Of a DNA stretch of 64,000 nt, positions 2,244-33,874 are shown in pieces. The translations under genes were made by a program, and so were the position numbers. Position 1 is the stretch's first letter. Each line of letters begins with the position of its first letter. Under the pieces are notes generated by a model. That model did no database searches. It was not told where the DNA came from and saw only the letters and a program-made list of their open reading frames with translations. The DNA comes from Nitrospira sp. (GTDB lineage Bacteria; Nitrospirota; Nitrospiria; Nitrospirales; Nitrospiraceae): NCBI GenBank assembly GCA_022226935.1, contig CP092081.1, forward strand, positions 792,734 to 856,733. The letters are read 5' to 3'.

Positions 2244-4223
2244 TCAGGCTTGGACAGGAAAAGCGCGAAGAATAATTTCATAGAGTTGGTCTGCGGCGGA
2301 CTCTTTCGGCAGAAACGCGATGGCCCCGGCGCCGGTCATAGCGTGATGAACTTGGGGATCATTGCGGACGGAAATGCCGATGATGGCGAGGGAGGGATGT
2401 TCCTGGGTGAGCATGCGCGTGGCCTCGATCCCGTCGATAATCGGTAGATTCACATCCATAATGACGACGTCCGGACGCAGCGCCCGCGCCATGATGACGG
2501 CGTCCTGCCCGTCGGCGCCTTCCCCCACCACCGTCAAATTGTCGTGGGCGTCCAGTATGCTGCGAAGCCCCTGCCTCACCATCGCATGGTCGTCGATGAG
2601 CAGAATGTTGATGTTGCGCGATGAAGCTTCCGTGGAGGGGGCGGTTGTATGGACGGTATCTGCGGGCGGGAATTGAGGCTGGACGGAGCCGGATGCCAAA
2701 GGGAGCCGCAGGATCGCCACCGTGCCGCTTCCCGGAACGGACGACACCTCGCACTCGCCTCCAAGAAGTTCCATCCGTTCTCTAATGCTCAACAGACCGA
2801 ATTTACAGCGCGTGTTGTGAGTGACGCTCAATTCTGTCACATCGAAGCCGACGCCTTCATCCTCCACACAGATCCACAAGTCTCGGCGATCGTCATCCAC
2901 GTTAATGGTGATGGCGGCGTGATCGACTTTGGCATGTTTGATGATGTTAAAGAGCAGTTCGCGGACTGATTGAAACAACAGCACGGCTTGATCGTCCGGC
3001 AGGGTGAATGATGGAGCCATCGTTTTGACGGCCACTTCAAGGCCGTGCTGCTTCATCTGTTCTCCCAGCCATACCAGCGATTGCGACAGTCCGAATTGAT
3101 ACAGGATATGCGGGCTGAGCTCGGCGACGAGGGAACGGGTATAGGTCAGCGCCTGATCGAGCATCTCATCGATCTTCGACAGGGCCGTCGATGCCGTGGC
3201 ATCGTGAACGGTCGGGATGACTTGCGCCAGTCTGATCCGGCTGGCCACGACAAGTTGCGCTAAGTAGTCGTGCAGTTCGGTGGCGAGATGCCGACGTTCC
3301 CGTTGCTCGGTCAGGGTAAGGTCGGAGGCCAATGCCCGCAGGCGTTCCTGCGAGAGGAGGAGTTCTCCGGTCCGTTCGACGATGCGGCGCTCGAGTTCAG
3401 CGGCGGAGTTCTGCATGTCCCGTTCAGCCCGTTTTTGCTCGCTCAGATCCACGAGGATGTCCACCGCGCCGACCGGAGCGCCGGACGCGTCGCGAAGCGG
3501 CGTGGGGTGAGAGGCGACCGGAAGGCGGGTGCCGTCCGGTCGTTCGATGATGGTCTCCAACCCGCTGACGGGGCGATTGAGGGCAAAGGACTGCGCCAAA
3601 GGGCATTCTTCCGGCGGCATGAGTCGACCGTCCGTCCAATATTGGCGCCAGGAACCGGACCAGCGGGCGGCACCGAGAGGGGGCCGGCGGCCCCAGAGAT
3701 CGACCGCCGCCTGGTTATAGCGCGTAATGCGGCCGTCGGCGTCGGTGGTATACACCGCGGCAGGAAGCGCCTCAACCAGATTGGCCAGGTTACGTTCACT
3801 CTGTTTGAGGTCTGATATCGCCCGCGCGATTTTCGACGCCCCGACGATCCGGCCGTCTCGATCCTTGATCGGCGATACGGAGAGGGAGATTTCAACCAAG
3901 GTGCCGTCTTTGCGTTTGCGCACAGTTTCGTAATGGTCGATTCGTTCGCCCCGGCGGAGCCGTTCCAGGATGCGCGGTTCTTCGTTCTGGCGATCTTGGG
4001 GGATCAAGCGCAACACCGGTTGACCGATCATTTCACCGGCCGTATAGCCGAACAGATGTTGAGCGCCCCGGTTCCAACTGGTGATGATGCCATTCAGATC
4101 CTTGGAGATGATGGCATCGTCAGAACATTCCACAATGGCGGCCAGGTGAGCCAGCATAAAGTCCAAGGGAAAGTCCGGCTGAGGGAGAGAAGGAGATGTT
4201 TCTTCCGGGCTGGGCATATACAT
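2244..4223 (-). CDS. PAS-PAS-HisKA_3 histidine kinase with C-terminal receiver
   Basis: 659 residues, soluble. Domain order: PAS (about 22-140), PAS (about 145-265), a coiled stretch, a NarL-type dimerisation/phosphoacceptor domain with motif [11 protein letters not shown] (HisKA_3), HATPase_c with N-box NIIKHAK and G-box EDEGVGF, then a receiver starting [14 protein letters not shown] with phosphoacceptor in VIMDVNLP. The protein stops right after the receiver: there is no GerE helix-turn-helix, although this receiver type normally carries one. It is therefore a hybrid kinase that must pass its signal to a separate regulator. The ATG at 4223 has AGGA five bases upstream. It shares architecture with the C-terminal halves of the 5108-7165 and 11698-16821 products, so these are paralogues. 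A CTAG-box module lies at 4275-4321. Confidence 0.9.
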   Translation of the reverse strand: MYMPSPEETSPSLPQPDFPLDFMLAHLAAIVECSDDAIISKDLNGIITSWNRGAQHLFGYTAGEMIGQPVLRLIPQDRQNEEPRILERLRRGERIDHYETVRKRKDGTLVEISLSVSPIKDRDGRIVGASKIARAISDLKQSERNLANLVEALPAAVYTTDADGRITRYNQAAVDLWGRRPPLGAARWSGSWRQYWTDGRLMPPEECPLAQSFALNRPVSGLETIIERPDGTRLPVASHPTPLRDASGAPVGAVDILVDLSEQKRAERDMQNSAAELERRIVERTGELLLSQERLRALASDLTLTEQRERRHLATELHDYLAQLVVASRIRLAQVIPTVHDATASTALSKIDEMLDQALTYTRSLVAELSPHILYQFGLSQSLVWLGEQMKQHGLEVAVKTMAPSFTLPDDQAVLLFQSVRELLFNIIKHAKVDHAAITINVDDDRRDLWICVEDEGVGFDVTELSVTHNTRCKFGLLSIRERMELLGGECEVSSVPGSGTVAILRLPLASGSVQPQFPPADTVHTTAPSTEASSRNINILLIDDHAMVRQGLRSILDAHDNLTVVGEGADGQDAVIMARALRPDVVIMDVNLPIIDGIEATRMLTQEHPSLAIIGISVRNDPQVHHAMTGAGAIAFLPKESAADQLYEIILRAFPVQA

Positions 4224-4274: not shown

Positions 4275-4321
4275 ACTCTAAAACCGTCAGCCTCTGTGTC
4301 ACAACTAGGCAAAATGCTAGC
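4275..4321 (-). promoter_or_regulatory. CTAG-box promoter module for the 4223 kinase gene
   Basis: The 18-mer at 4304-4321 reads on the minus strand GCTAGCATTTTGCCTAGT. A 23-bp spacer leads to the -10-like TAGAGT (4275-4280), and the start codon is at 4223. It is one of two separate modules in this divergent intergenic region. Confidence 0.75.
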
Positions 4322-4337
4322 GTAGATCCGCTCTGAT

Positions 4338-4382
4338 CCAAGGGAGGTCCCTAGTAACCCCTCTTCAAAAACAGGGTATGGT
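4338..4382 (+). promoter_or_regulatory. CTAG-box promoter module for the Hsp20-like gene
   Basis: The 18-mer at 4338-4355 reads CCAAGGGAGGTCCCTAGT. A 21-bp spacer leads to the -10-like TATGGT (4377-4382). An in-frame ATG at 4378 falls inside this hexamer, which argues for the ATG at 4429 as the true start. Confidence 0.7.
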
Positions 4383-4428: not shown

Positions 4429-4815
4429 ATGATAAATGAAATGAATCTCCCCATCCAAGAACCGACGAAAGCCCATGCCGTGCGGGGAATCTCGCCCAGC
4501 CAGTCCGGTTCGGCTCGCGGGTCGGGTGCAAATCTCCTCCGCTCTCAACCAGTCATCGACGTGTCCGAAGGCGATGGAAACTTTAACGTCTATGCAGACT
4601 TTCGGCCGGTTCTCGAAAGTTCAGCCGCGCAGGTCGCCGTCAGATTTGTGCAACAGGGCATTATCCTCACCGGCGGAACGGTAGAACGATACCTTCCTAT
4701 TCCAACTGATGCCCTCATTCAGCACGCGCGCGTGACAGTGACCGAAGGAATAGTCAGGATTTCCATCCCGACGGCCGACTCGGGACATCGCTGGCGGTCC
4801 ATCGTGATGTGGTAA
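4429..4815 (+). CDS. Hsp20/alpha-crystallin-like small protein
   Basis: 128 residues. The C-terminal 90 residues follow the small heat-shock protein pattern: a start like PVIDVSEGDG, a middle strand pair, then RYLPIP, a stretch ending EGIVRISIP, which matches the family's hydrophobic strand, LP and dGvLtItiP positions. The C-terminal IxI/V tail of typical Hsp20 proteins is not obvious, and the N-terminal arm is short and Ser/Gly/Arg-rich. If functional it would be an ATP-independent holdase for unfolded proteins. The start is the ATG at 4429 with GGAG upstream. An alternative in-frame ATG at 4378 lies in the predicted -10 box. It is transcribed divergently from the PAS kinase gene at 4223. 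The family assignment rests on a weak pattern match. Confidence 0.6.
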   Translation: MINEMNLPIQEPTKAHAVRGISPSQSGSARGSGANLLRSQPVIDVSEGDGNFNVYADFRPVLESSAAQVAVRFVQQGIILTGGTVERYLPIPTDALIQHARVTVTEGIVRISIPTADSGHRWRSIVMW

Positions 4816-5107: not shown

Positions 5108-7165
5108 TCAGCGCAGCGCCTGGCGGATCGCGAGGTACAATTCGTCCACCGCCGCTTCTTTGGAAATCAGCGTGGCGGCCCCGGCGCGGAGCATCGCCTC
5201 GCGGGTTTCACCGCTGTTCTGTACCGACAGGCCGATGACGGCGACGTCCGGATGCCGAGATTTAATCTCGAGGGTCGCATCGATTCCGTTGATGCAGGGC
5301 ATATTGATGTCCATCACCACCACGGAAGGCCGCAGCTGCGCAACCGATTCCACCGCCTCCTTGCCGTTCGACGCCTCCCCGATCACCGCCACATCGTCGT
5401 ATTCGTCCAGCATGCTCCGGAGCCCTTGGCGCACCATGGCATGATCGTCGACCAGCAGGATGCCGATGAGATCGGAGGGCTCCGGAAACAGGGGAGGTGC
5501 CGACAGGTCTTTCTTCCTGGAATTGGACGCAGGGAGAGCCGCCACCGGCGCAGGCTGCTGTTCTCCCCCGCCGGTTTGCGCCGATCGATAGGGTGTTCTG
5601 ATTCTGGCCTTGGTGCCCTGGCCCGGCGCGGATTCAATGAGGAGTTCCCCCCCCATTGCCGCCATCCGTTCGGTAATACTGAAGAGACCGAAGCGCGCGG
5701 TGCCGGTTCCCTGATGGTCCGATGGCGCCGAGACGAAGCCGCAGCCGTCATCCGAGACGATGATTTCCAAACAGTCATGCTCCGTACATGTGACTTCAAC
5801 GGTGGCCCGTGTCGCGTTGGCGTGCTTGAGCACGTTGAACAGCAATTCGCGCACGGATTGAAACAGCAAGACGGCTTGATCCTCAGGAAGGGACAACACG
5901 GGCATCTGCTGCTGCATCGCGACAGGCAGCCCGTGCCGTTGCATCTGCTCGGCCAACCAGGTCAGCGACTCCAAAAGACCAAATTCCTTGAGCGTGGGGG
6001 GGGTCAACTCCGCGACCAGGCATCGAGTGTAATCGAGGGATTGCGTCAGGGCCTGATCCGCGTCTTGTAGCAGTTCTGCCGTGCGATCCCCGGATGCGCC
6101 GGGAATGGCCTGCCGCAATTTCATGCGCACGACCACCAGCAGTTGCGCCAGGTAGTCATGCAGTTCAGTCGCCAGCCGTTTGCGTTCCTTCTGCTCTGTC
6201 AGATTGAGCTCCGTCGCCAATGCACGGAGTTGTGTCTGCGATCGGCGTAATTCGTCGGTCTTCTGATTGACCGCGCGCTCCAAGTCGACACTCCAACGCT
6301 GGAGACGTTCTTCTGCTTCCTTGCTCTCCGTGAGGTCGAAACTCGCGCCGATGTACCCTAATAGCTGTTCAGATGGGGAAAGGGTAGGCATGCCGATCGT
6401 GCGTATCCAGCGGTAGACCCCATCTCCCCGACGACAACGAAATGAAGTTTCGAATCGGAGGCGCTCGGCGACGGCACGACGGTAGGTGTCGGCGGCCTGC
6501 GCCTGGTCGTCGGGATGGACATGGTTGAGCCACGAGAGCCTGCTCGCTTCTTCGACGGTGGCTACTCCGAAAAAGTTCAGGCAGGCCTGATTGACGAACT
6601 CCAAACCGTCGACACCGTTCATCCAGATGATGACCGGCGCGCTGTCAGCCAGCAGTCGAAAACGAGATTCACTGTCGCGCAGGCGCTGGTCGGCTTCGTC
6701 TCGTTCGCGCAACAGCCGGGCTTTTTCCTCGGCGAGTGTGAGGAAGCGATCCCGTTGGCGGGCCAGTTCTTCCCGCTGTCTGAAGAGATCGAGAAAGATG
6801 GCGGCCTTGCTGCGCAGGACATGCGGCTCGATCGGCTTGTAGAGAAAATCGACCGCGCCTGCCTGGTAGCCACGAAACCGGTGCAAGTTGTCCTGTGATT
6901 CCCCCGTGAGGAAAATGATCGGCACGTGCTGCGTGCGCCGCGAGCCGCGCATCAGCTCGGCCAGTTCAAATCCATCCATGATCGGCATGTGCACATCGAT
7001 GATGGCCAGGGCGACATCGTGATCCAGCAGCATCTCCAAAGCCTCCCGGCCTGAACCTGCCTGCAACACTTCCACCCCGTCTTGAGACAACAGCGTCCTG
7101 AGCGCCACGAGGTTGGCTTCGTGATCATCGACGAGCAGGAGCTTAGGTTGTTTGGCCGGCATCAT
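5108..7165 (-). CDS. REC-PAS-HisKA_3-HATPase-REC hybrid histidine kinase
   Basis: 685 residues, soluble. Order: receiver (about 8-125; LLLVDDHE, IIDVHMP, lysine in LYKPIE), coiled linker, PAS (about 165-285), second coiled segment, HisKA_3 with [11 protein letters not shown], HATPase_c (N-box NVLKHAN, G-box SDDGCGF), low-complexity linker, second receiver (about 565-680; [22 protein letters not shown]). There is no DNA-binding domain. It is the last gene of a five-gene operon: its ATG at 7165 overlaps the cheB stop, so translation is probably coupled. With CheR and CheB directly upstream, a link between protein methylation and this kinase is plausible but unproven. Confidence 0.9.
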   Translation of the reverse strand: MMPAKQPKLLLVDDHEANLVALRTLLSQDGVEVLQAGSGREALEMLLDHDVALAIIDVHMPIMDGFELAELMRGSRRTQHVPIIFLTGESQDNLHRFRGYQAGAVDFLYKPIEPHVLRSKAAIFLDLFRQREELARQRDRFLTLAEEKARLLRERDEADQRLRDSESRFRLLADSAPVIIWMNGVDGLEFVNQACLNFFGVATVEEASRLSWLNHVHPDDQAQAADTYRRAVAERLRFETSFRCRRGDGVYRWIRTIGMPTLSPSEQLLGYIGASFDLTESKEAEERLQRWSVDLERAVNQKTDELRRSQTQLRALATELNLTEQKERKRLATELHDYLAQLLVVVRMKLRQAIPGASGDRTAELLQDADQALTQSLDYTRCLVAELTPPTLKEFGLLESLTWLAEQMQRHGLPVAMQQQMPVLSLPEDQAVLLFQSVRELLFNVLKHANATRATVEVTCTEHDCLEIIVSDDGCGFVSAPSDHQGTGTARFGLFSITERMAAMGGELLIESAPGQGTKARIRTPYRSAQTGGGEQQPAPVAALPASNSRKKDLSAPPLFPEPSDLIGILLVDDHAMVRQGLRSMLDEYDDVAVIGEASNGKEAVESVAQLRPSVVVMDINMPCINGIDATLEIKSRHPDVAVIGLSVQNSGETREAMLRAGAATLISKEAAVDELYLAIRQALR

Positions 7166-7764
7166 GATGCTTTCAGTTCCCGTGAGGCCAACAGCTGGTT
7201 CATGTCGGACAGGCTCATGGCCCTCGCTTCGGGGCAGGCAGCCAGGGTGGCCTCCGGCATCAAGCCCGCCGCTGCCGATTCGGGCAGTTGCACCAAGACG
7301 ATGCCGCCGGCCTTGACGACCGAGCGGGACCCTTGCGCACCGTCATGATTGGCCCCGCTGAGAACAAGTGCCAGCAGCGTTTTCCCATAGACATCGGCCG
7401 CGGATTCGAACAGCACGTCAATGGAAGGCCGCGCGAAGCTCACCGGCTCCTCATTCGACAAGGACAAGGATCGGTCCTTTTCAACCAAGACATGATAATC
7501 CGGTGGGGCGAAATACACGGTCCCGGGGCAGATCAATTCCTTGTCCTCTGCCTCCTTGATCGTCACCCGGCATTTCGCCTGCAGGAGGGCGGGGATACTG
7601 TTGGGCTGATCCGGCGGCACGTGCACCGTGACGAGAATCGGTAAGGGATAGTCCGGCGCCAGCGGCGGAAGCAATTGGGTGAGAGAGGCAATCGCTCCGG
7701 CCGATGCGCCGATGACGATGGCTTCAATATCGAGCAACGAGAGATCCTGCTGCATGACGCTCAT
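7162..7764 (-). CDS. cheB: CheB-type protein-glutamate methylesterase, catalytic domain only
   Basis: 200 residues, about the size of a bare CheB catalytic domain, with no N-terminal receiver. The nucleophile motif GASAGA, the catalytic histidine region VTVHVPP and the aspartate region SGANHDGA are all visible. CheB hydrolyses methyl-glutamates (or deamidates glutamines) on chemoreceptors. The ATG at 7764 overlaps the cheR stop (ATGA), and the stop overlaps the next kinase start. No chemoreceptor, CheA or CheW is in the window, so this pair more likely serves the adjacent PAS/GAF kinases than flagellar chemotaxis. Receiver-less CheB next to CheR is known from CheB-CheR-PAS fusion proteins. 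Confidence 0.9.
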   Translation of the reverse strand: MSVMQQDLSLLDIEAIVIGASAGAIASLTQLLPPLAPDYPLPILVTVHVPPDQPNSIPALLQAKCRVTIKEAEDKELICPGTVYFAPPDYHVLVEKDRSLSLSNEEPVSFARPSIDVLFESAADVYGKTLLALVLSGANHDGAQGSRSVVKAGGIVLVQLPESAAAGLMPEATLAACPEARAMSLSDMNQLLASRELKAS

Positions 7765-8600
7765 AGGTCGCTCCGCTTCTGATAGATCCGTTCCACTGGT
7801 AGAAATTCGTGGAAGGCCTTGGCGTGGGCATTGAAGCGGAGACTCTCCCTGGCGCCGATCCCCAGGAATCCTTTCCTCACCAGTGCATCCTTGAATAGGC
7901 CCACGGCGCGGTCCTGCAGCGGCCGATCGAAATAGATCAGGACGTTACGGCAGCAGACCAGATGCACTTCGGCAAAGACGGAATCCGAGGCGAGGCTGTG
8001 GTCGGAAAAGACCGTCCGCCGACGGAGTGTTTTGTCAAAGCAGGCCGCCCCATACGCCGCATTGTAATATTCGGACAACGAGCCGGTTCCGCCGGACAAC
8101 CGATGGTTTTTCGTGAACAGGGCGATGCGTTCCAGGTCGTAGACTCCCGCTTCCGCCTTGGCGAGCGCCGTGCCGTTGATGTCAGTGGCGTAAAACATGG
8201 TTTTGTCTTCGAGGCCTTCTTCCCGAAAAAGAATCGCAAGGGAATAAAGTTCTTCCCCGGAACTGCATCCCGCCACCCAGACTTTTAAGGACGGATAGGT
8301 CTTGAGGTGCGGAACGACCTGCTCCCGGATGGCGCGAAAATACCCCGGGTCACGAAACATGTCGCTGACCTGCACCGTCAGATAACTCAACAATTGCGGG
8401 AGCATCGCGTCATTGTGCAGCAATTGGCCTTGGAGCGCGGAGAGGGACGGAAACCCCATACGCTCGCAGGCGAGGAGGAGGCGGCGTTTGAGCGAGGCTT
8501 TGGAGTATCCACGAAAGTCATAGTGATACCGGGAATACATCGCCTCAAGAAACAACCAGAGCTCAATATCCTCGGTGTTGAGGGTCGTATCCGGGGTCAT
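7761..8600 (-). CDS. cheR: CheR-type SAM-dependent protein methyltransferase
   Basis: 279 residues from the ATG at 8600. That ATG gives the ATGA overlap seen at the other junctions of this operon; an ATG at 8612 is also possible. The N-terminal helical CheR_N domain (about 10-75) is followed by the Rossmann-type methyltransferase domain. Visible motifs are [11 protein letters not shown] (SAM-binding loop), [10 protein letters not shown] (acidic residue binding SAM ribose) and CCRNVLIYF. The family methylates glutamates of receptor signalling domains using SAM. The target here is unknown, and the neighbouring multi-PAS kinases are candidates. It is followed by cheB with a 4-base overlap. Confidence 0.9.
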
Positions 8601-11600
8601 CGCGGCATCCATACACGCACCAATGACAGCAACTGGTCCACGTCGAGCGGTTTGGCCATATAGTCATTCGCACCGGCGGCGAGCGCCTGCTCTTGGTCGT
8701 TTTTCATGGCCTTCGCGGTGAGAGCGATGATGGGTAGTTTTCGCCATTCCGGTTGTTCCCGGATGGCACGCATGGCGGTGAGCCCATCCATCTCTGGCAT
8801 CATGATATCCATCAACACCAGATCGATACGCCGCTTTTCCCGCTCCTTCGATTGTTCCAGCAGCGTCAGGCATTCTCGCCCGTTTCGGGCGATTTCGATT
8901 TTGGCTCCATGAGGTTCCAGTACGGCGCTCAACGCAAAAATATTCCGGACGTCGTCTTCGACAATGAGCACGCGCCGGTCTTCCAAGACGGCATTCCGTT
9001 TGCGCGCTTTCTCCAGCATGCGCTGTTGTTCCGGGGGCAGCGCGGTCACGACCTGATGCAGGAACAATGTAACCTCGTCGACCAGCCGTTCCGGCGATTT
9101 TGCCCCCTTGATGATGATGGAGTGCGAATATTTGCGGAGCCGGTGCTCCTCCTCAGTGGACAAGTCCCGGCCTGTATATACAATGACCGGTGGAAAGGCG
9201 AACTGCTCCTCGCGGCTCAAGGTTTCGAGAAGGGAAAATCCGGAGGCGTCCGGCAACGTAATATCGAGCACCATGCAGTCGAACGTCCGTTCGCTGAGGC
9301 AGGCCAGACATTCGGCGACGCTTTCCGCGCCGACGGTTTCCACTTCGTCCGACCCGAGTAACAGCCGAAGGCTTTCACGTTGTGTCTTATCGTCTTCCAC
9401 GATCAGCACGCGTCGCGGTTTGTCCGTCAGGCGGGACTCGAATTGCCGGAACGCCTCGACCAGTTGCTCGCGTTGGACGGGCTTGAGCAGATAGCCGACG
9501 GCGCCCAGTGAGAGCGCCGCTTGTTCATAGTCATGCCCGGATACCACATGGACGGGGATGTGCCGTGTCCGGACATCGCTCTTCAAGCGATCGATGACCG
9601 AAAGGCCGGAGTGATCCGGCAATCCGATATCGAGAACGACCGCGCTCGGCAGATAACGCGAGGCCAGGGTGAAGGCATCGGCAGCCGTGTTGCTCAACAA
9701 CACTTGGAAATTGAGTTCGTGGGCCAGGTCGGAGAGGACGCGCGCGAAGGATTCATCGTCCTCCACGATCAGAATGACCCGGCGATGGGGGACGAGCGTC
9801 TCCCGATCGTCGTCGGTTCGTAAGGTCGCCGCGGCGGTGTGATGATGGTGAGGTGACGCCAGAGGAATCGTGTCTGCTACAGTCGGAGACAGGGCTTTGA
9901 CGCCGAGGACAGGCGGAGGCGCTGGCGTCAGGGTTTGAGGCAGGATGAGCGTGAAGGTACTGCCTTCTCCGGGAGTGCTCGTGAGGTGGAGTTCTCCTCC
10001 GAGTAACCGGACAAATTCACGGGAGATTGATAACCCGAGGCCGGTGCCCCCGTATTTCCGGCTCGTCGTACCATCGCCCTGGCAGAAGGGTTCGAAAATC
10101 AGGTCCTGCTGTGCGGCAGGAATCCCGACTCCTGTGTCCTGCACGGCAAAGGTCAGTCGGCCGTCGGGGAGCATCGAAATGTCGAGCGACACGTGGCCGG
10201 ACTCCGTAAATTTGATCGCGTTGGATAAGAGATTTTTCAGCACCTGTTCGAGCCGTTGCCAGTCGGATTGAATGGATGGCGGCGTGCCGGGTGCGCGGGT
10301 GGTGCGGAGCTGAAGATGTTTTTGAGCCGCCAGCGGTTGGAAGAGCGCGTGGAGACTGTCGAGCAAACGTTGCAGCGACACGTCCCCGGGCGTGATGTCG
10401 ATGCGGCCCGCTTCGACTTTGGCCAGGTCCAAGACGTCGTCGATCAAGGTCAACAGGTCATGGCCGGCCGATTCGATTGTCGAGGCTGATTTGACTTGAT
10501 CCGCAGTCAGATTGCCCTGAGGGTTATCGGCCAGCAGTTTGGCGAGGATCAATGTGGAGTTAAGCGGCGTGCGCATTTCATGGGACATGTTGGCAAGGAA
10601 CTCAGACTTGTACTGGCTGATCCGTTCCAATTGCTGCTTTTGCGCTTCTGAGATGAGAGCCGCTTCGCTGAGTTCCTCTTTCTGTGATTCGAGAATCTGC
10701 GCCTGTTCTTCTAATTGGGAATTCGTCTGCTCCAACTCTGCCTGTTGCTGCTCGAGCCTCCCGTGCGATTCCTTCAGTGCCCGGCTCTGCTCTTCCAATT
10801 CCTCATTGGCGACCCGCAGTTCTTCGCTTTGCACCTGAAGCTCTTCGGCTTGTCGTTGGGTTTCCTCGAGCAATTCCTGCAATCGGCTGCGGTAATGGGC
10901 GGATCGGATGGCCACGGCAATGGATTCGGCGATCCGATCGACCAATTCTCTGTCCGACTGATGCACCGGATGAAAAAAGGCCAATTCGACGACTGTATTG
11001 GTCAGGCCATCAATACCAAAGGGCGCGATTAACAGATGGCGCGGAGCGCTTCGCCCCAGGGCCGATCCGACGGTAAAATACCCTTCCGGCAGGTCTTGTA
11101 TGACGAGCGGGCGTTTGGTGTGGAGTGCCTGCCCAAGGAGCCCGTCACCGGCCTGGAACGTGTCAGGCAGTGACGTGCCATCCGGGACTCCATGGGTCGC
11201 CACGCGATGGAATCTGGAACCGTCGGCCACGAAGATCGCGCCCCCCTGAGCGTCCATGTACTCGACGAGCTCGTGCAACACATGTTCAGCGAGGGTGTTG
11301 AGGCTCTGTTCGCCGAGCATGCGCTCGCTCAGTCTGGTCTGGCCCACGCGTATCCATTCTTCTTTCCGCAGCGCCAGTTTGCTGGTGATGAACTGGTATC
11401 CAAAGGTCGCCAGCGCGCCGGCCGTGGCTATCCCCATGGTTCGATTAATAAGGGACAGGGAAGGATCGATGCCGGAGGGACTGATGACGAGACCCACGAG
11501 CGTGAAGAGGGACACGGTTGCGCCGACTCCCACGGGCACCATGGGAGACCAGGTGAGGTACGACAGCACCAGTGGCACGAGATACAGAACCCAGACCGTG

Positions 11601-11701
11601 ATGCCCAGCGGGGTATAAAAATCCGCCACGAGCACCGTGGCCATGGAGAGGGCGATGGATCCGGAGATGATGGGATTTGGCTTCTGTTGGAATCGAATCA
11701 T
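8597..11701 (-). CDS. Membrane GAF hybrid histidine kinase with three receivers
   Basis: 1034 residues. The first 110 or so residues contain about four membrane helices. Then come GAF (about 130-275), a long Glu/Gln-rich coiled coil (about 280-370), classical HisKA with H-box [10 protein letters not shown], HATPase_c (G1 DTGVGIP, G2 [11 protein letters not shown]) and three receivers in tandem ([10 protein letters not shown] about 650; [10 protein letters not shown] about 780; [10 protein letters not shown] about 905). The third is the classic hybrid-kinase type with [11 protein letters not shown] and a K in AKPLD. The receivers imply a multistep phosphorelay. The ATG at 11701 overlaps the upstream stop by 4 bases. 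The signal is unknown. The long coiled coil followed by this core is reminiscent of cyanobacterial and proteobacterial light/redox-type hybrid kinases. Confidence 0.92.
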
Positions 11702-14700
11702 GAGCGACTTAGCAGCTCCCTCCTGGCTGTCTGGATCGTCTGATAGAGATCTTCGACCGCTGCCTCCTTATTCAGAAACGCGACGGCACCGGCCTCCCTC
11801 ATTTCATGGCCGACATGGGCGATGGTCTGGACCGACAGGCCGATCACGATAGTATCGGGGAGGGCATCCTTGATTCGCCTGGTCGCCTCGATCCCGTCCA
11901 TCACCGGCATATTCACGTCCATGAGGACGACGTCGGGTTGCCATTGCCTGGCCAGGGTCAGCGCTTCGCTGCCGTTCGCCGCTTCCGCCACGACCTGAAT
12001 GTCTCCATACCCGGCAAGAAGTCCGCAAAGGCCTTGACGCACCATGGCATGGTCGTCGGCGATCAGCACCCGTATCTGGCCGGAACTTTCCAGTGGATGG
12101 CCATTGATGGGCGCGTGATCGTCGGAAGCCCGCTCCTGTGACGGGATTGCATGCTGAATATGAGGAGTGCGGGAAGCGGACGGAAGCCTATCCTGGTCCG
12201 ACGGAGGCGTGAGCGGCGCGATTAAGGTCGCTTCCGTTCCCTTCCCCGGCTGTGAATGCACCTCTAACCGGCCGCCGAGGGCAAGCATGCGCTCGCGAAT
12301 GCTGAACAAACCGAATCCCGGGACTCGCCCGCCTTTGCGAAGCGCGATATGATCTGATTCAGCAAAGCCAGTACCGCGATCCGCTACGGTGATCTGGAGG
12401 CATCCTTCCTCGACGCGGACCGTAATCGAGGCCTCTTTCACGGAGGCGTGTTTGACCACGTTCATGAGCAGTTCGCGCACCGACTGAAAGAGCAGCATGG
12501 CCTGGTCTTCGGGAAGCGGAAGTCGTTCCGGTCCCAACTGCAGGGAGACTCGAAGATCCCGTTGCAACATCTGCTCGGCCAACCAGCCCAAGGCCATCGG
12601 CAGGCCGAATTCCTTCAGGATCGGGGGACTCAATTGTGCAACGAGGGTGCGGGTGTAGGTCAAGGCCTGGTTCGTCACGTCCTGTAATTCGTTCAGTGTT
12701 TTCGCGAGGGGAGGGGACAAAGGGTGTTGCATGGCCTGAGCCAGGCGGATGCGGCTGAGTGCCAGCAGCTGGGCCAGATAGTCGTGCAGTTCCGTCGCCA
12801 GATGTTGCCGCTCGCGCTGTCCGGCGAGGTTGAGCTCGGTGGCCAGCGCACGCAGGTGTTCACGTGACTGGGTCAGTTCGATGGTGCGTTCGGCCACACG
12901 CCGCTCCAGTTCAGCGGCCGACCGTTGGAGATCTTCCTCGACGCGTTTCCGTTCCGTGATGTCGTAGTTGATGCCCACCATGCGTACGACCTGCCCCTGT
13001 TCGTCGGCGACGGTCGCGCCATGGCCGGCTAACCACCGGATGGCACCATCGGCAGTGAGGATGCGGAACTCGGACGAGAATACTCCGCTGTGTTGCGCGA
13101 GGCGGGCTGCCTCCTGAACGCGCGCCGCATCATCAGGATGGAGGGCGCTGTAAAAATCGCCGGCCTGACGGATGGGACGATCGACGGATCGGCCGAACAG
13201 TTCATATTGTCGAGCATCCCAGGTGGTTTCGCCGGTTAATAAATTGAAGTCCCAGGCGCCCATCCTGCCGGCGGCCATGGCGAGTCGAAGGCGTTCCTCG
13301 CTCGAGCGAAGGAGATCGTCGGCCTTCGCTCGTTCGATGCCGAGCGCCAGCGTTCTGGCCAGGGTTTGCGTCCATCCCACATCCTCATCGCTCATCCGAT
13401 GCGGACGGTTGAAATAGAGCATGAACTTGCCGAGTAATTCCCCTCCGTAGGTGAGGGGAACGAAGGCCAAGGCCTCCACGCCTTCCCGTCTGATCGTGGC
13501 CTGCAATTGCGGGTCGAGATCGGCTGTCGCGAGATCCGGTATGAAAAGCGGAGGGGGGTTCCGCTGGTCAGCTGACCAGGGTGAGTGGCCCTCAACGGCC
13601 TTCCGGTACTCCTCTGACAATCCTCGCCACGCCTTGAATCGCATGACCCCGTCCTGGTCGAAGAGCAGCACCGAAGCGCGATCCGCCGAGACGGCTCGAA
13701 TCATGGCCTCTAATGCTGTGTCGTAGAGGCTCGCCACCGGTTCGGCTCGATTGACGGCGTCGGCCAGCTCGTACAGCATTTGCTGGCGGTCGCTGAGCGC
13801 GAGCAGCCGGGTTTCCTGTTGTTTGTGTTCCGTGATATCGAGGCCGACGGCCACGATATGGCTCAGGTCATGTCCCTCTCGCACGCCACCGACACTCACG
13901 CTCATCCAGATAGCAGTGCCGTCTTTGCGGCGATACCGCTTTTCGATGACGAAATCCGGGCCGCCATTCACAAGTTGCTGAAAGCGTTCCAGGCAAAGAG
14001 GCAAATCATCAGGATGAGTGATTTGTTGCATATCAAGCCCGAGCAGTTCCGCCTGATCGTACCCGAGGATGTCGCAGAAGCGCTGGTTGACGAAGACGAA
14101 GCGCCCGGTGAGATCCGTCTGCGCGACCGAAGCGGTGGCCTGGCTGACGATGGCGCGGTAGCGCGCCTCGCTGGCAGCCATCAATTCTTCCGCCCGCATC
14201 TGGTCCGTAGTGTCTTTCGCGATCCCGATGATCTGTTTGGCCCGGCCCTCCGGACTGCGGTCGAAGACCGAGGCGCGCATCAGGATCCACCGATACGACC
14301 CATCGGCATGCCGGAGACGGTGTTTGTGTTCCAACACTTCGGCCGCAGTTGCCGAGTCAAATCGGGCCAGCCATTGCTCCACAGACGGCACATCGTCGGG
14401 GTGAACCAGCGTGACAATGGGATTGTCCTGCATGGCCATCAGCTGTTCGACGTCGTATCCGAGCACAGATTTCAGACTCTGATTGATGTACACGGTGCGA
14501 GCTTGTAGGAGATCGTAGACGAACAGCAGATCTGGGGTGGAAGCGGCAATCCGTTCCAGGAACAGTTTGCTGCGAGTGATGTCCTCCTCGGCCTGGCGGC
14601 GAATGCGTGAGAGATCTAGATGAGTCGTCACGCGAGCCATCAATTCTTGTGCGCTGAATGGTTTAACCAGATAGTCGTCCGCGCCTTGTTCGAGCCCTTC

Positions 14701-16821
14701 GACACGGGACTCCTCGCCCGCCCTGGCGGAGAGCAGGATCACGGGAAGAGTACGAACGGCGGGATCGGCCCGCAACGCCTTGAGGAGGCCGACTCCGTCG
14801 AGCTGCGGCATCATGATGTCAGTCAACAGGAGGTCTGGCGGGTACCGGCGAATCTCGTTCAAGGCTGCCAGCCCATCACTTACCGTGACAACGTCGTACC
14901 GACTGCTCAATAAGCGCTCGATGTATTGACGCATGTCGGCATTATCGTCGGCGACCACTACTCGCGGACGAGTGACAGCGCTTGCGGCCTCGCTGTTCGG
15001 AGGATGCGACTGGTCCGGTTGCGTATCGGGCAGCCAATGAAGGGCTTCCTCAATATAGAATGCGGCGGTCTCTGAGGAGGTGGAAGGCGCGTCACCCGCG
15101 CCGATCTGCTCGGCAGGCAAATGGGCGGTTCCCCAGGGAATTCTCACCGTAAAGGTGCTGCCTTCATCCAGACGGCTTTCCACCTGGACGGTACCTCCAT
15201 GCAAGCGGACCACTTCCTGTACCAGTGCCAACCCGATGCCGCTGCCTTCATGGGTCCGGCTGCGCCGATTCTGGACGCGAAAGAATCGCTCGAAGAGGCG
15301 GGGAAGCGCCTCGGCCGGGATGCCGACCCCCGTGTCGCTGACGATCAATTCGGCGCCCGCCGCGTCGTGTCGCATCGCGATTGTGATATGCCCTTGGAAG
15401 GTGTGCTTGAAGGCATTGCTGAGCAAATTCAGGACGATTTTTTCCCACATGCTCCGATCGACATAGACGGCCTCCGGCAGCGGGGGGCAATCGACGACGA
15501 ACGTGACCCCTGCTTTTTCAATGGCTGACCGGAAGCCGCTCGCCAGATCTGCGCTATAAGCGGCGAGGTTGGTCGGTTGATAACAGGCATCGGCTCGTCC
15601 TGCCTCGATGCGCGAAAAATCCAATAAGGTGTTCACCAATTTCAGGAGACGCAGGCTATTGCGATGGGCGACTTCCAATGCCGGGCTCTGTGGACGGTGG
15701 CGCAGTTCTTCTTCCAGTGGCCCGAGCATAAGGGTGAGCGGGGTGCGGAGTTCATGGCTGACGTTGCTGAAGAAGGCGGTTTTCGCCCGATCCAATTCCG
15801 CCAACGCTTCGGCTCGGCGTTGTTCAGATTGATAAGCTCTGGCATTGTTGATGGCGACGGCGATATGTGAGCTCACCATCCGGAAGAAATGGTGATAGTT
15901 CTCGTCCAGCGGCCGACGGGGACTGATGCCTGCGACCAGGACGACACCGCCGTCCTGGGCAGCCGTGCCGATAGGGAGCAGGAGGCACTGCCTCGTCCGT
16001 TCAGGCCACGCGCCGCCGGGCAATAGGCCAAATTCATCGGATAACTCGTCCAACAGCAACGGCCCACCGTTACGAATGGCGGCTCCAAGGGGCCACACTC
16101 CAGGGCCCGCTTCGCCGGTAAGGTCCAGCTGTTCTCTTCTTGCGGGGCTCGAGTTCTCCAGCCCTATGGCGCCGGCTAACCGTGCCTGTCGATGATCTCG
16201 ATCGATCTGGTAGAGCAGCGCGAAGGACACATCCGCCGGGTCGGTGGCGAGGGCCTGCAGGATCTTGCCGCACGCGTCAGTTTCGTTTTGTGCTGATCCC
16301 GACAGCGATGCCAGCTCACGCAGCAGGCTCGTTCGCCGATCGTTCAACACCCGGTAGGTGGTTTCCTGAACGATATTGAGAATGCCTTCAACGGCTCCGC
16401 TCTGTCCGCGGATCGGGTTGAGGCTGTAGTCGAAATAACATTCCTCCGTATAGCCGAACCGTTGCATCGGCAGCAGCTCATCGCTCCGCCAATTGGCGTT
16501 TCCGGTGGTATGCACACTGTGAAAATAATGCTGAATGGTCGGCCACAACTCAGGCCAGACCTCGCGAGCAGGGTGACCTAGCGCCCATGGATGTTTGCCG
16601 CCGACGACCGGGCGCCAGGCATCATTGTAGAGAAGCCAGCCATCGACGCCCCAATAGATCGCCATGGGAGTCTGGGCAGTAAGACAGACACCAAGGATGG
16701 ATACGAGGGAGGCGGGCCACTGTTCGATAGGGCCTAGAGGCGTTCGGTTCCAGTCGAATGCCCGAATGCGACCACCCATCTCGCTGCCGGTCAGCCAGCT
16801 GAACATATCGGTCGCCTTCAT
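11698..16821 (-). CDS. Giant hybrid kinase with two complete kinase cores
   Basis: 1707 residues from the ATG at 16821 (a TTG 12 bases further up is possible). Approximate order: PAS (30-165), GAF (175-335), HisKA with [10 protein letters not shown] (about 360), HATPase_c (about 410-580, DTGVGIP), receiver (about 620-745, [24 protein letters not shown]), PAS (760-885), PAS (890-1010), GAF (1020-1180), PAS (1190-1310), HisKA_3 with [11 protein letters not shown] (about 1370), HATPase_c (about 1440-1545, DRGTGF), terminal receiver (about 1590-1705, [14 protein letters not shown]). Both catalytic cores look intact, which is unusual. The second half matches the 2244-4223 kinase, so the gene looks like a fusion of a HisKA hybrid with a HisKA_3 hybrid. 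It is the first gene of the 16.8-5.1 kb operon; CTAG-box module at 16985-17031. Confidence 0.9.
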
Positions 16822-16984
16822 TCCCCCGTCCAAGGTTGTCTGTTGGTTGATGAGGGCCGGCCGATCATACGGGGGGAAGAGATTGCCTCTCTCCCTTGTG
16901 CATACTCCTTTGAACGAAAGGCACTGTGATTCGGTACAGTAACCGAGTGCGCATCAGTCCCCAGAGCCTGCACCTGGGGTTATT

Positions 16985-17031
16985 TCTGTAGCATGGATGA
17001 GACGGTTGCCCCCACTAGTGAAACCCCTAGT
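16985..17031 (-). promoter_or_regulatory. CTAG-box promoter module for the five-gene kinase/CheRB operon
   Basis: The 18-mer at 17014-17031 reads on the minus strand ACTAGGGGTTTCACTAGT. A 23-bp spacer leads to the -10-like TACAGA (16985-16990). The leader to the ATG at 16821 is long (about 160 bp) and shows no ORF. Confidence 0.7.
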
Positions 17032-18078: not shown

Positions 18079-18125
18079 GCTAGGGGTCTGACTAGCTGGG
18101 TATCATGAGGAAAATTGGGTAGGGT
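18079..18125 (+). promoter_or_regulatory. CTAG-box promoter module for the PLD-EEP operon
   Basis: The 18-mer at 18079-18096 reads GCTAGGGGTCTGACTAGC, with two intact CTAG cores. A 23-bp spacer leads to the -10-like TAGGGT (18120-18125). It lies 26 bp from the module that serves the divergent DUF326 gene. Confidence 0.75.
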
Positions 18126-18137
18126 GTGCAGCAACGA

Positions 18138-20378
18138 ATGGAACAGTCGAAGGATATGGCGAACGACACGAGCCAGGCTGCGGCGGAAAGAAATGACGCG
18201 TCTCTCTTGGAGGAGCCGGAAGACCCTACGCGAATACTCGTGCCGGGACAGACCTGCTGGCGCATAGAGACGGCGGAGCGGACGGCGTTCCTCGTAGACG
18301 GAGAGGCGTACTTTAAGGCATTTCGCGATGCGGCATTGCGCGCGACGCATTCCATCATGATCGTCGGCTGGGATATCGATACCCAGGTCGAGTTGGTGCG
18401 CGACGAACGTGCATCGTCGGATATGCCCGCCAAACTCGGCGAGTTTCTGGTCGCGCTTCTCCGTCGCAGGCGCAAGCTACGGGTGTATGTTCTGAATTGG
18501 GATTATGCCGTGATTTATGCGCTGGAGCGGCAATGGATGCCGACGGCCGAACCGGGGTGGCGCCGGCACCGGCGTCTTTCGTACCAGATGGACGACCATC
18601 ATCCGGTCGGCGCGTCTCACCATCAAAAATTGGTGGTGGTCGATGATGCAATCGGTTTTGTCGGCGGGCTGGATTTGAGCAAGTCTCGCTGGGATACCAG
18701 GGAGCATCTCTCGCGGAATTCGCGCCGGATAGATGCGGACGGTGCGTCCTATGCCCCGTTTCATGACGTGCAAATGATGGTGACCGGCGATGCCGCCTCG
18801 GCGTTGGGGGATCTGGCGCGCAGCCGGTGGTTACGGGCCACCGGACGACGACTCCCTGCGCCGGCCAGGCGTTCCGTCGAAGAGGTGTGGCCGCCGGAGT
18901 TGCATGCCGATCTCATGGAGTGCCGGATAGGAATCCTACGCACTCAGCCCCGATATGAGGAACTGGAGGAGAGGCGCGAGATCGAACAGGCCTATCTGAC
19001 TGCCATCAAACGTGCGCGCCGATCGATCTACATCGAATCGCAATATTTTACGGCCCAGGCCATGAGCCGGGCGCTCGCGCAGCGGCTGTCCGAGCATGAC
19101 GGTCCCGATGTCGTTTTGGTTCTCCGCCGGCATTGCGATGGCTGGCTGGAGCGCCGGACGATGGACACGTTGCGGGCTCGACTTCTGCAGGAAGTGGAGC
19201 TGGCCGACCACTATGGCCGGTTGCGCGTGTATGCGCCGGTCGTCCCGGGAGAGGAGGGCGCAGTACCGGTCGCAGTCCATAGCAAACTCCTGATTGTCGA
19301 TGACGAATTTGTCTGCGTCGGCTCGGCCAATATGTCGAACCGTTCCATGGGATTCGACACGGAATGCAATCTGGCGATCGAAGCCGGCGGCCAAACGCGG
19401 TTGCAAGCTGCCATCGCGTCGCTTCGTAACGGATTGCTGGCCGAACATCTCGGTGTCGTCCCCGAGACGGTCGCAGCGCAGATCCACACATGCGGTTCCC
19501 TCGCCGGAGCCATTGATTCGCTGCGCGGGGGCGAGCGAACGCTGGCCGATGGCTGTTTTGATGCGCTCTCCCTTTCAGATGCCATGATTCCAGAACACGC
19601 GCTGGTCGATCCGGAACGCCCCATGGCTGCGGATCATCTGCTGGCCGGCATGGGATTCCGGCGCGAGCGGGTCCAGATCGCGCGTCGGGCCCTGTGGGGG
19701 CTCTCGCTCTTGGCAGGAATGGCGATGCTTGCGGCTGCCTGGCGATGGACGGCTCTGGGGCAACTGCTGGACCTCGAAGCGCTGGTGAATCATGCGCAGG
19801 CGTTGGGGCGCAGTCCGCTGGGGCTGCTGGCTGTCATGGGAGGGTATGTGGTGGGCGGCGTGCTCGCAATCCCCGTCACCGCGCTGCTCGTTGTGACGAT
19901 CCTCGCCTTTGGCCCCTGGCTTGGTGGCTTGTCCGCGCTGGCAGGGTCACTGCTGAGTGCCATCACGCTGTTTGGATTCGGACGGGCCATGGGCGCCTAT
20001 CGAATCAGGCGATTTGTCGGGTCTCGCGTCGAACTCCTGAGCCGGCGTCTGGCTGAACGAGGGTTTTGGGCGGTGCTTCTGGTGAGGGTGCTCCCGATTG
20101 CGCCCTTCTCCGTGATCAATCTGGTTGCGGGCGCATCCCCCCTGTCATTGCGAAATTTTGTGCTGGGTACATTTGTTGGGATGCTGCCCGGGATTACCCT
20201 CATGACAACGTTCGTGGGCGGTCTTGAGGACGCCGTCCGGGAACCGAGTTGGCAGGCCTTCATGATGGTGGGCATGGTTATCGCCGCTGTATGGAGTGCC
20301 GTCTGGTACATCTCGGGGCAGTTACAGGCCGGACAGCCGGCTCCGCTCGCGCCTGAATCTTCGATCTCCGCGACATGA
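18138..20378 (+). CDS. Phospholipase D/cardiolipin synthase-like protein fused to a VTT (DedA-like) membrane domain
   Basis: About 746 residues. The N-terminal part carries two HKD motifs: HHQKLVVVDDAIGFVGG (about residue 160) and HSKLLIVDDEFVCVGSANMS (about 385), the catalytic pair of the PLD superfamily, which makes or cleaves phosphodiester bonds in phospholipids. The C-terminal 220 residues form a membrane VTT/SNARE-associated domain (hydrophobic segments at about 520-545, 560-590, 600-620, 645-670, 680-700, 715-735) with the family-like stretch VRVLPIAPFSVINLVAG. The fused membrane domain could present lipid to the PLD site. The start is uncertain: the ATG at 18138 leaves a very short leader after the predicted -10, and the ATG at 18156 is the alternative. 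The EEP gene follows after 24 bp. Confidence 0.88.
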   Translation: MEQSKDMANDTSQAAAERNDASLLEEPEDPTRILVPGQTCWRIETAERTAFLVDGEAYFKAFRDAALRATHSIMIVGWDIDTQVELVRDERASSDMPAKLGEFLVALLRRRRKLRVYVLNWDYAVIYALERQWMPTAEPGWRRHRRLSYQMDDHHPVGASHHQKLVVVDDAIGFVGGLDLSKSRWDTREHLSRNSRRIDADGASYAPFHDVQMMVTGDAASALGDLARSRWLRATGRRLPAPARRSVEEVWPPELHADLMECRIGILRTQPRYEELEERREIEQAYLTAIKRARRSIYIESQYFTAQAMSRALAQRLSEHDGPDVVLVLRRHCDGWLERRTMDTLRARLLQEVELADHYGRLRVYAPVVPGEEGAVPVAVHSKLLIVDDEFVCVGSANMSNRSMGFDTECNLAIEAGGQTRLQAAIASLRNGLLAEHLGVVPETVAAQIHTCGSLAGAIDSLRGGERTLADGCFDALSLSDAMIPEHALVDPERPMAADHLLAGMGFRRERVQIARRALWGLSLLAGMAMLAAAWRWTALGQLLDLEALVNHAQALGRSPLGLLAVMGGYVVGGVLAIPVTALLVVTILAFGPWLGGLSALAGSLLSAITLFGFGRAMGAYRIRRFVGSRVELLSRRLAERGFWAVLLVRVLPIAPFSVINLVAGASPLSLRNFVLGTFVGMLPGITLMTTFVGGLEDAVREPSWQAFMMVGMVIAAVWSAVWYISGQLQAGQPAPLAPESSISAT

Positions 20379-21124: not shown

Positions 21125-21589
21125 TCAGGAGCCAGCGCCCACTGCAACTGGTTGCGGTCGTTCGATGGTGTAGCGGCCTTGTCCAAGGTGGCTCAAGCGC
21201 AGTTGCCCCATCCGGCTGAGACGGTCGACCTCTGAAAACACCTGATTCCAGGTCAGGGTCGGGCAGGCTTCTACCAGCATGTCCAGATCGCACTGTTGCA
21301 TATGATCGAAGGCATCAAGAATGGTCGGCGTCACATTGTTGGCGGTCTCAGTCTCGTGGTGTTCCTCGGGAATGTCCGGGCGAGCAGTTCTTCCCAGCTT
21401 CGTAAATTGTACCGCGCACGCGGGGCAGTAGGTGTGGGTGAGGCGGTAGCCCCCGATCGTCAGATGATGCGTATCGAGATACGCCTTTAGAGGGCCCCAT
21501 TCCGGTTCCGTCCCGGGTGAAAGAGCTTCGCCTCGAACATTTTCACATACGCAGCAGATAGGGATACACTTCTTCATCGCTGTTTTCAT
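21125..21589 (-). CDS. Small zinc-finger / winged-helix-like protein
   Basis: 154 residues. The N-terminal part has CCVCENVR and, about 40 residues on, THTYCPACA: a four-Cys zinc site similar to the short Cys-rich module found beside many PAS and response-regulator proteins. The C-terminal 50 residues (DMLVEACPTLTWNQVFSEVD, then RLSRMGQLRLSHLGQGRYTI) read like a winged helix: helix, helix, then a beta-wing. A small DNA-binding or protein-interaction role is possible, but no named family is recognised. The ATG at 21589 follows GAGGTGG. A CTAG-box module lies at 21641-21686. Confidence 0.7.
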   Translation of the reverse strand: MKTAMKKCIPICCVCENVRGEALSPGTEPEWGPLKAYLDTHHLTIGGYRLTHTYCPACAVQFTKLGRTARPDIPEEHHETETANNVTPTILDAFDHMQQCDLDMLVEACPTLTWNQVFSEVDRLSRMGQLRLSHLGQGRYTIERPQPVAVGAGS

Positions 21590-21640
21590 AACCACCTCTC
21601 TTCTCGTCGGAATGAAGTGCAGAGGGCCGACTAGATTGGA

Positions 21641-21686
21641 ACTCTAGAAAATATTCTACGCCCGGACTACTAGGTGCTCCCCTAGT
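21641..21686 (-). promoter_or_regulatory. CTAG-box promoter module for the 21589 gene
   Basis: The 18-mer at 21669-21686 reads on the minus strand ACTAGGGGAGCACCTAGT (two intact CTAG cores). A 22-bp spacer leads to the -10-like TAGAGT (21641-21646), and the start codon is at 21589. Confidence 0.8.
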
Positions 21687-28878: not shown

Positions 28879-30609
28879 TTACGCCGGCTCAATGCCGCCG
28901 GCAGGGACCGTGTATTGTTCTTCAATGGCCGCGCGGATCAGCCTCCGGCTTTCATCAGCCGGAAGATCCGATCGGCTTTCAATCTCCCGGACTTCTTTTG
29001 AGAGCGCTTCGTCTTTGATCATCTCGCTGATCCACGTGGAGTAATCATGCGCCCTGAGGTGATATTGCCACGTGTGTTCATCGACGCCTTCGCCGAGTTG
29101 CATAAAGAGCAACAGATTTTGCGCCCGCAAATTCAATTGCCCCGCCGGACCTCTGAAATAGAAGCTGCGGTCAGGAGGCAGTTCGCCTTCCGCATATTTT
29201 CGCCTATGTCGCCGGCGCTCGCTGATGCTGGGGGCGAGCTCCAGGACCTCGGGAGCGCCCGTCGAGGTAATGTCCCACATGAGGGTCTGACCACGTTCAA
29301 GGTCAGCGGAGGGCAGGGGAGGAGCTCCCCGGTTCAGCGCGCGGCAAAAGCTTTCGATGGTCTGCCCCGGTGATTGGCCCAACGCAAACACCAGATCCAC
29401 GGTCTTCAGAATCGACGGGTCGATCTGATCGGGGTGAACGGTCACATACAGCACGCCCGTGGAATCCTGCGCGAGACCCGGTGCGGTGGGATTGCCGTCG
29501 CGCGGCAGAAGATGGTGCGATTCATCGATCAGGATCCAATGCGGGCGACCGCTTGCGGCGCGCAGTTCCAAAATCTTGTGGAGAAGACCCAGGAAAAACG
29601 CCGGGCGATCATGTAACGGGAGACCGACCAGGTTCACGACGACATGTGTCTGCGGATTCGCTAACGCCGTGAGGATTTCGGTGAGGCTGGGACCGTTCTG
29701 GGCGGTGCCCAGGATGACCGCTTGTGGGACGTTGTCATAATCCCCTTCGGGGTCAATGACGCAGAGTTGATATCCTTGCTCGCCGAGCCGCTCCAAGAGT
29801 CCGGTGGCAAGCGTCGATTTTCCGCTTCCGGACGTGCCGGCCACGAGAAGGTTCCGCCGACCGAAGGGGAGGATGACTTCGTCTCCGTTGCGTCGCCGTC
29901 CCAGCAGCAGACCGTGCCTGGACACCGTCAGTTCCGACGCCGCCAGATCGTCCGAAAGTAAATCATCGATGATTTCGATGACTCCGCGTCCGTGGTCTCC
30001 GGCGGTGGTACGATCCGCGGTTTCCTTCAGCATCGGGACGGCATTGTCTACGGCCACGCCGTATTCCGATAATGCCAGCATGGCATGGTCGTTTTCTCCA
30101 TCGCCGATGGCCACGGTGTTGTGAGGAGAGAGCTCCAAGCGGGCCAGCGCAGCCGTCAGTCCGGTGGCTTTATTGATGCCGTGCGGGAGCACCATGACGG
30201 CGCCCTTGTTGAAAATGATGCGAAGCTCCAATCCGAGGTCGCGAATGATGTCGAGGATCACAGTTTCATACGGAACCCGTGTGGCGACAATGATATGTCC
30301 GAGGCTGAGATGCTGTACTCCGCGGCGGTTCACCTCCTCCAGAAATGCCGGCCGGGGAGCGGCGGCCAGAAGCGTGATCTCTTTCGTCGCCGGGCGGTAC
30401 AGCACACCGCCGTTTTCTGCCACGACCAATTCGCACAATGAGATCTGGGGAAAAATGTTCAATAACTCGGGCAGGATCCGACCTGTGACGAGAATGAGTT
30501 TTCGGCCGGATGCCACCAGCCGCTCGATCGCGGCGACGGTGTCGGGATATACCGATCCGTCCGATGCCAAGGTCCCGTCGTAATCTGCTGCCAAAGCAAG
30601 GTAACGCAT
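28879..30609 (-). CDS. HAD-family phosphatase fused to HerA/DUF87-like P-loop ATPase
   Basis: 576 residues. The N-terminal half is a Cof-type (HAD-IIB) phosphatase: AADYDGTLASDG (nucleophile and acid Asp), ILVTGR (motif II), a Lys in FNKGAV or INKATG, and AIGDGENDHAML (motif IV). From about residue 225 comes an FtsK/HerA-like ATPase: Walker A GTSGSGKST, IDPEGDYD, Walker B WILIDESHHLLP, and a later arginine/sensor region. The C-terminal 110 residues are helical (PDRSFYFRGPAGQLNLRAQN onward). Such a fusion of a small-molecule phosphatase with a translocase-like ATPase is odd and its function is unknown. The start at 30609 is preceded by GGAAGGACG; the longer frame from 30666 would overlap the predicted leader. 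Promoter module at 30650-30695. Confidence 0.85.
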   Translation of the reverse strand: MRYLALAADYDGTLASDGSVYPDTVAAIERLVASGRKLILVTGRILPELLNIFPQISLCELVVAENGGVLYRPATKEITLLAAAPRPAFLEEVNRRGVQHLSLGHIIVATRVPYETVILDIIRDLGLELRIIFNKGAVMVLPHGINKATGLTAALARLELSPHNTVAIGDGENDHAMLALSEYGVAVDNAVPMLKETADRTTAGDHGRGVIEIIDDLLSDDLAASELTVSRHGLLLGRRRNGDEVILPFGRRNLLVAGTSGSGKSTLATGLLERLGEQGYQLCVIDPEGDYDNVPQAVILGTAQNGPSLTEILTALANPQTHVVVNLVGLPLHDRPAFFLGLLHKILELRAASGRPHWILIDESHHLLPRDGNPTAPGLAQDSTGVLYVTVHPDQIDPSILKTVDLVFALGQSPGQTIESFCRALNRGAPPLPSADLERGQTLMWDITSTGAPEVLELAPSISERRRHRRKYAEGELPPDRSFYFRGPAGQLNLRAQNLLLFMQLGEGVDEHTWQYHLRAHDYSTWISEMIKDEALSKEVREIESRSDLPADESRRLIRAAIEEQYTVPAGGIEPA

Positions 30610-30649
30610 CTTTACGTCCTTCCCGAATGATTCCAGTGACACATTGCGA

Positions 30650-30695
30650 TGTATACAAGCTTCCATCAGCCAGTGGAGCTAGGAAGGAGCCTAGG
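30650..30695 (-). promoter_or_regulatory. CTAG-box promoter module for the HAD-ATPase gene
   Basis: The 18-mer at 30678-30695 reads on the minus strand CCTAGGCTCCTTCCTAGC (two intact cores). A 22-bp spacer leads to the -10-like TATACA (30650-30655), the best -10 in the set. A poor -10 (CATGCT, 30717-30722) also lies to its right at similar spacing and could serve the 30740 gene. Confidence 0.8.
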
Positions 30696-30739
30696 GAGAT
30701 TCCGAGTCGGCGGGCACATGCTTTCATGCCAGAAAAAAG

Positions 30740-33828: not shown

Positions 33829-33874
33829 AGCCTATCGGGAAGCCCTGGAGATAACAGCTAGGGAGGGGCCTAGT
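33829..33874 (-). promoter_or_regulatory. CTAG-box promoter module for the FAD/Rieske gene (possibly bidirectional)
   Basis: The 18-mer at 33857-33874 reads on the minus strand ACTAGGCCCCTCCCTAGC (two intact cores). A 22-bp spacer leads to the -10-like TAGGCT (33829-33834). On the plus side only GATGAT (33897-33902) is found at the same spacing, so a role for the Ku operon is uncertain. Confidence 0.75.

Follow-up and report, generated by a model that had tools for sequence, protein, structure and literature searches.

Two back-to-back promoters were found at positions 4275 to 4382 of the window, each with a CTAG palindrome at a fixed distance upstream. The window is the whole stretch of 64,000 nucleotides that was analyzed (genome positions 792734 to 856733 of a single-contig genome of 4.23 Mb). 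The module is likely to be a class-II promoter that belongs to a two-component regulon and would be bound by a dimer of a NarL/FixJ response regulator (RR), a reading that is drawn from sequence. The leftward promoter, on the minus strand, contains a predicted operator at 4305 to 4320, read directly as CTAGCATTTTGCCTAG, and a −10 hexamer, TAGAGT (4275 to 4280), at an offset of 41 from the operator start. Its target is a hybrid histidine kinase with a PAS-HisKA_3-HATPase-REC arrangement of Pfam domains (2244 to 4217/4223). The rightward promoter, on the plus strand, has a second predicted operator, CAAGGGAGGTCCCTAG, at 4339 to 4354, which is imperfect (one mismatch) and is located 34 bp from the first; the −10 hexamer TATGGT (4377 to 4382) is at an offset of 39. 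This promoter faces a 128-amino-acid protein (4429 to 4815), for which a Pfam search gave no match and whose likely start is 4429, as the open reading frame start at 4378 overlaps the −10.

Exact CTAG-N8-CTAG palindromes were detected in 22 places genome-wide, mostly as CTAGG-N6-CCTAG (the box), and 12 of these copies were present in one 82-kb stress-gene island, the window included (genome 772747 to 854633; binomial p = 1.5e-15). All 22 copies, the 12 of the island and the other ten, were intergenic, the status of the latter ten being derived from gene calls made in this analysis. Within the window, there were 25 matches to the box with up to two mismatches against 12.7 expected, a number reached in none of 100 shuffles. 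When the islands of 12 genomes of the genus were pooled, 107 CTAG pairs were observed at a spacing of 12 versus ∼2 at any other spacing, and none of the 107 was inside a gene even though ∼86% of the sequence is coding. Another 47 spacing-12 pairs were detected around RR1-like genes (see below) in other genera, again with none inside genes. Extra CTAGs at distances of 26 or 38 were considered as further half-sites and rejected, as many form part of a −10 (C-TAGNNT), for example those at 61860 and 48435. Also set aside was an operator-like match at 28805, which is situated between converging gene ends with no visible promoter role.

Without alignment on any −10, the one place where a TATAAT-like signal emerged was near offset 40, counted from the initial C of CTAG. 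TANNNT was present at offsets 39 to 42 in 8 of 20 gene-facing orientations in this genome (∼0.6 expected) and in 15 of 46 in other genera (∼1.7 expected). This fixed offset puts the operator center at about −43.5; for the operator at 4305, with its −10 at offset 41, the center is −44.5. The original prediction had placed an 18-mer at −52 to −35 with a center near −43, and a −10 at offset 40 indeed gives a span of −52 to −35 and a center of −43.5. It had also stated that there was no TTGACA-like −35, which was nearly right. Matches to TTGACA of at least 5/6 with a 17-bp spacer were found in 0 of 73 promoters, and 4/6 matches in 7 of the 73, but a degenerate TTG or TTC often occupies the outer operator flank, directly abutting it at the −35 position. 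An example is TTGTGA, which abuts the operator at 4305 and matches TTGACA at 4/6 with an 18-bp spacer. As this flank is situated where a −35 would begin, the element is better described as a poor −35 that merges with the edge of the operator. An operator at a fixed distance with its edge at the −35 region, combined with an absent or poor −35, is the arrangement of a class-II sigma70 promoter. The proposed class-II activator geometry is, on these sequence features and their retention across genera, well supported, and transcription would be activator dependent.

NarL/FixJ regulators could instead bind these sites mainly as repressors or dual regulators. In favor of this, divergent and tandem sites are present, and a TTG/TTC −35-like element directly adjoins some sites, but the operator overlaps neither the −10 nor the start, and the 73 promoters have a poor −35 throughout. 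An operator that is clear of both elements, next to a poor −35, fits a need for an activator, and action mainly by repression, or dual action, is unlikely.

Further operators with gene-facing −10 hexamers were located across the window. On the minus strand, an operator with one mismatch at 2206 to 2221 faces a hybrid kinase that starts at 2035 and ends left of the window (−10 TAGGCT, 2177 to 2182), and an operator at 17015 to 17030 faces a large hybrid kinase at 11698 to 16833 (TACAGA, 16985 to 16990). Also on this strand are operators at 21670 to 21685, facing a small gene at 21125 to 21595 (TAGAGT, 21641 to 21646), and at 30679 to 30694, facing a HAD/AAA protein at 28879 to 30666 (TATACA, 30650 to 30655) and accompanied by a further half-site at 30691 to 30706. 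Three half-sites (CTAGG, CCTAGG, and CCGAG) follow each other at 12-bp steps in 30679 to 30706, possibly forming two overlapping operators. The remaining minus-strand sites are a one-mismatch operator at 57848 to 57863, which faces a gene at 57413 to 57763 (TAGTCT, 57819 to 57824), and CTAGGGCCATGCCTAG at 61885 to 61900, which faces a YtxH protein at 61443 to 61769 (TAGTCT, 61857 to 61862). On the plus strand, an operator at 18080 to 18095 faces a PLD/VTT protein at 18126 to 20378 (TAGGGT, 18120 to 18125), and one at 48397 to 48412 precedes a small gene and LigD at 48860 to 51475 (TAGAGT, 48436 to 48441). A divergent operator at 33858 to 33873 serves both an FAD/Rieske oxidoreductase at 32217 to 33770 (TAGGCT, 33829 to 33834) and Ku at 34039 to 34968 (GATGAT, 33897 to 33902). 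Genes for a molybdopterin oxidoreductase and a protein resembling cytochrome c7/c3 occupy 45502 to 48278, leftward of the operator at 48397. Three large hybrid kinases are clustered at 5108 to 16833, interspersed with CheB and CheR domain genes. The island also carries two CsbD-like genes and a PepSY-like gene (genome 787972 to 788961), which lack an exact box.

The box-linked genes of this genome include hybrid kinases, Ku, LigD, and the PLD/VTT, FAD/Rieske, HAD/AAA, and YtxH proteins, to which are added PRC-barrel proteins, an NDH-2-like protein, a glycosyltransferase, and superoxide dismutase (SOD; one-mismatch box). A porin-like protein followed by RR1 is also downstream of a box. The PRC-barrel, NDH-2, SOD, glycosyltransferase, and porin-like products, left of the window, were named by reading their translations rather than by a Pfam search. 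The targets best conserved across genera were hybrid kinases, for which matches are best BLAST hits and not proven orthologues, and RR2 (11 genomes of other genera). Operator-linked homologues of the kinase at 2244 to 4223 were present in 10 islands of the genus and 5 genomes of other genera. Conservation of kinases and RR2 as targets fits a self-reinforcing two-component circuit.

RR1 (genome 782696 to 783379, plus strand; Response_reg, 6.3e-24; GerE, 9.2e-20) and RR2 (genome 783384 to 784040, minus strand; Response_reg, 5.7e-27; GerE, 1.3e-17) are convergent genes within the motif cluster, ∼10 kb from its left end and ∼9 to 10 kb left of the window. Both encode a receiver plus a GerE/LuxR-type helix-turn-helix (HTH), the composition of NarL/FixJ response regulators, the family being assigned from domain and sequence matches. 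An RR1 orthologue was detected in 20 of 28 genomes of the genus. The mean number of CTAGG-N6-CCTAG boxes was 10.6 in these 20 genomes and 3.25 in the eight others (p = 6e-5), and the corresponding means in the family's other genera were 8.7 with and 1.5 without RR1 (p = 1e-8), phylogeny being ignored in both comparisons. The pair was retained as convergent neighbors in nearly all of the genomes examined; the order-level relatives G206 and G264 also carry the pair, but no exact box was found there at distances of up to 40 kb. A box with up to one mismatch was located within 350 bp upstream of RR2 in 26 of 33 genomes, compared to 1 of 66 shuffled regions, and was followed in several genomes of other genera by CATAAT or GATAAT at offset 40. 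Autoregulation of RR2 through the RR2-SOD box was rejected for this genome, where the −10 is on the SOD side, clear RR2-facing −10s being restricted to other genera. As the motif and the RR pair share an island, RR1, RR2, and other island genes cannot be told apart by co-occurrence alone. HisKA_3 kinases usually partner NarL-type regulators, and such kinases are themselves among the box targets.

A link between regulator and operator was observed at paralogous RR genes (50 to 56% identical to RR1), where an exact box was present within 400 bp downstream in 23 of 46 loci against 0.44 expected. A box with up to two mismatches was found in 33 of the 39 loci whose recognition helix was scored as FHK but in only 1 of the other 7; two of these seven have an FHR helix, and the one positive locus is among these two. 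In an enlarged RR set, EFHK helices were associated with CTAGG-N6-CCTAG in 37 of 56 cases, EYHK helices with TTAGG-N6-CCTWA in 9 of 13 (Fisher, 1e-7 for EYHK versus EFHK), and E[F/Y]HR helices with the one-base-shorter, 15-bp CTAGG-N5-CCTAG in 5 of 6. Each helix type belongs mostly to one clade; hence, the covariation of helix and operator is strong circumstantial, rather than independent, evidence. The variant boxes of the EYHK and E[F/Y]HR types are located ∼40 to 70 bp downstream of the RR gene (loci L237, L249, and L250 and several of L261 to L277). These associations make the NarL/FixJ EFHK clade quite likely to contain the binder. The choice between RR1 and RR2 carries less confidence, and since there are many RRs per genome (90 matches to RR1 in its own genome), the binder could be a further member of this clade. 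A third clade RR (genome 4118737 to 4119381) has, within the region 4118654 to 4119381, a conserved box just downstream of it, which in this genome precedes a small Cys-rich gene; this RR and its downstream box are also present in genomes without RR1/RR2 (and in loci L177 to L179).

The original prediction had proposed a dimeric activator of the CRP/FNR or LuxR/NarL families. The link between RRs and operators favors NarL/FixJ, while genes for CRP/FNR and acyl-homoserine lactone (AHL)-type LuxR proteins occur irrespective of motif abundance. A CRP/FNR-family dimer of altered specificity, acting as a class-II activator, would recognize an identical 5-6-5 layout with a center near the class-II position. 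That layout is shared, as had been pointed out, but is not diagnostic, because UvrY, a NarL/FixJ regulator, binds TGTAAG-N6-CTTACA (PMC4682653). HTH_Crp_2 proteins were present in all 28 genomes of the genus (2 to 6 matches each) whatever the number of motifs, and the four CRP/FNR genes of this genome (178671, 2029431, 2629679, and 2735528) are far from the island. As CRP/FNR regulators showed neither linkage to nor covariation with the sites in the 28 genomes, and an operator link was seen for RRs instead, a regulator of this family is very unlikely.

An AHL-type LuxR regulator acting on a lux-box-like site near −42.5 is less probable still. CTAG-N8-CTAG does contain CT-N12-AG, which is the skeleton of las/rhl boxes, and an Autoind_bind protein was detected in 26 of the 28 genomes (0 to 2 per genome). 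Its presence did not follow motif number in these genomes, however; genomes G008 and G014 gave no Autoind_bind match despite having 10 and 13 motifs, respectively, and the gene in this genome (3503437) is outside the island. That the palindromes are a nonregulatory repeat family, methylation or restriction sites, or a selfish element, as their clustering in one genome region might suggest, is highly improbable in view of the fixed −10 distance, the strictly intergenic placement, the same genes downstream in relatives, and the absence of any longer surrounding repeat from the repeats listed.

The reading preferred here, a NarL/FixJ dimer at a class-II promoter, describes a kind of system that is known, while the operator and regulon appear to be undescribed, no description of either having been found in literature searches on the motif. 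UvrY/SirA/GacA regulators also combine a receiver with a LuxR-type HTH and use an 18-bp 6-6-6 inverted repeat comparable to ACTAGG-N6-CCTAGT (PMC4682653). They differ in that the letters here are CTAGG and in that the UvrY palindrome is far upstream (∼−182 at csrB) instead of at ∼−43.5 with a fixed −10. The closest solved structures to RR2 by sequence were VraR (E = 2.7e-29) and NarL (5.4e-27), both over nearly the full length. Their known boxes differ, those of NarL being heptamers (TACYYMT), and the recognition helix here is KTVEFHK or KAVEFHK. In gene content, the island resembles the sigmaS, sigmaB, and PhyR-EcfG general stress regulons known from other bacteria (Ku/LigD, SOD, YtxH, and CsbD, with trehalose and glycogen enzymes nearby), but its promoters combine a sigma70-like −10 with a palindromic activator box and are not of the alternative-sigma type.

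We infer a circuit in which, upon a signal, an RR dimer, presumably phosphorylated and with RR1 and RR2 as the main candidates, would occupy the 5-6-5 CTAG palindrome ∼43.5 bp upstream of the start and make contact with sigma70 RNA polymerase at a promoter whose −10 is usable but whose −35 is poor. The stress island would thereby be turned on, including Ku, LigD, PLD/VTT, YtxH, SOD, PRC-barrel, NDH-2, and other genes. The RR would also turn on its own sensor kinases, as well as RR2 in other genera, resulting in positive feedback. Nitrospira are major nitrite oxidizers and are hard to manipulate genetically; the operator, the likely regulator clade, the sensor-kinase feedback, and the target list are now named and can be tested in vitro.

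A broader and more tentative possibility is a lineage-wide Nitrospira general stress response run by the convergent NarL/FixJ pair, in which the RR family was repeatedly duplicated and operators diverged with the helix (CTAGG-N6, TTAGG-N6, and CTAGG-N5). If this were true, the RR/operator series would be a natural set for reading the DNA code of the NarL/FixJ HTH. Paralogues in which helix and operator change together would make sequence rules for DNA recognition by this family testable. A clade RR with a receiver-only neighbor and the box CTAGGGGCATTCCTAG was also observed at positions 7157 to 8700 of a metagenome-assembled Woeseiaceae contig (L208); this contig is filed as gammaproteobacterial, indicative of either transfer or mis-binning.
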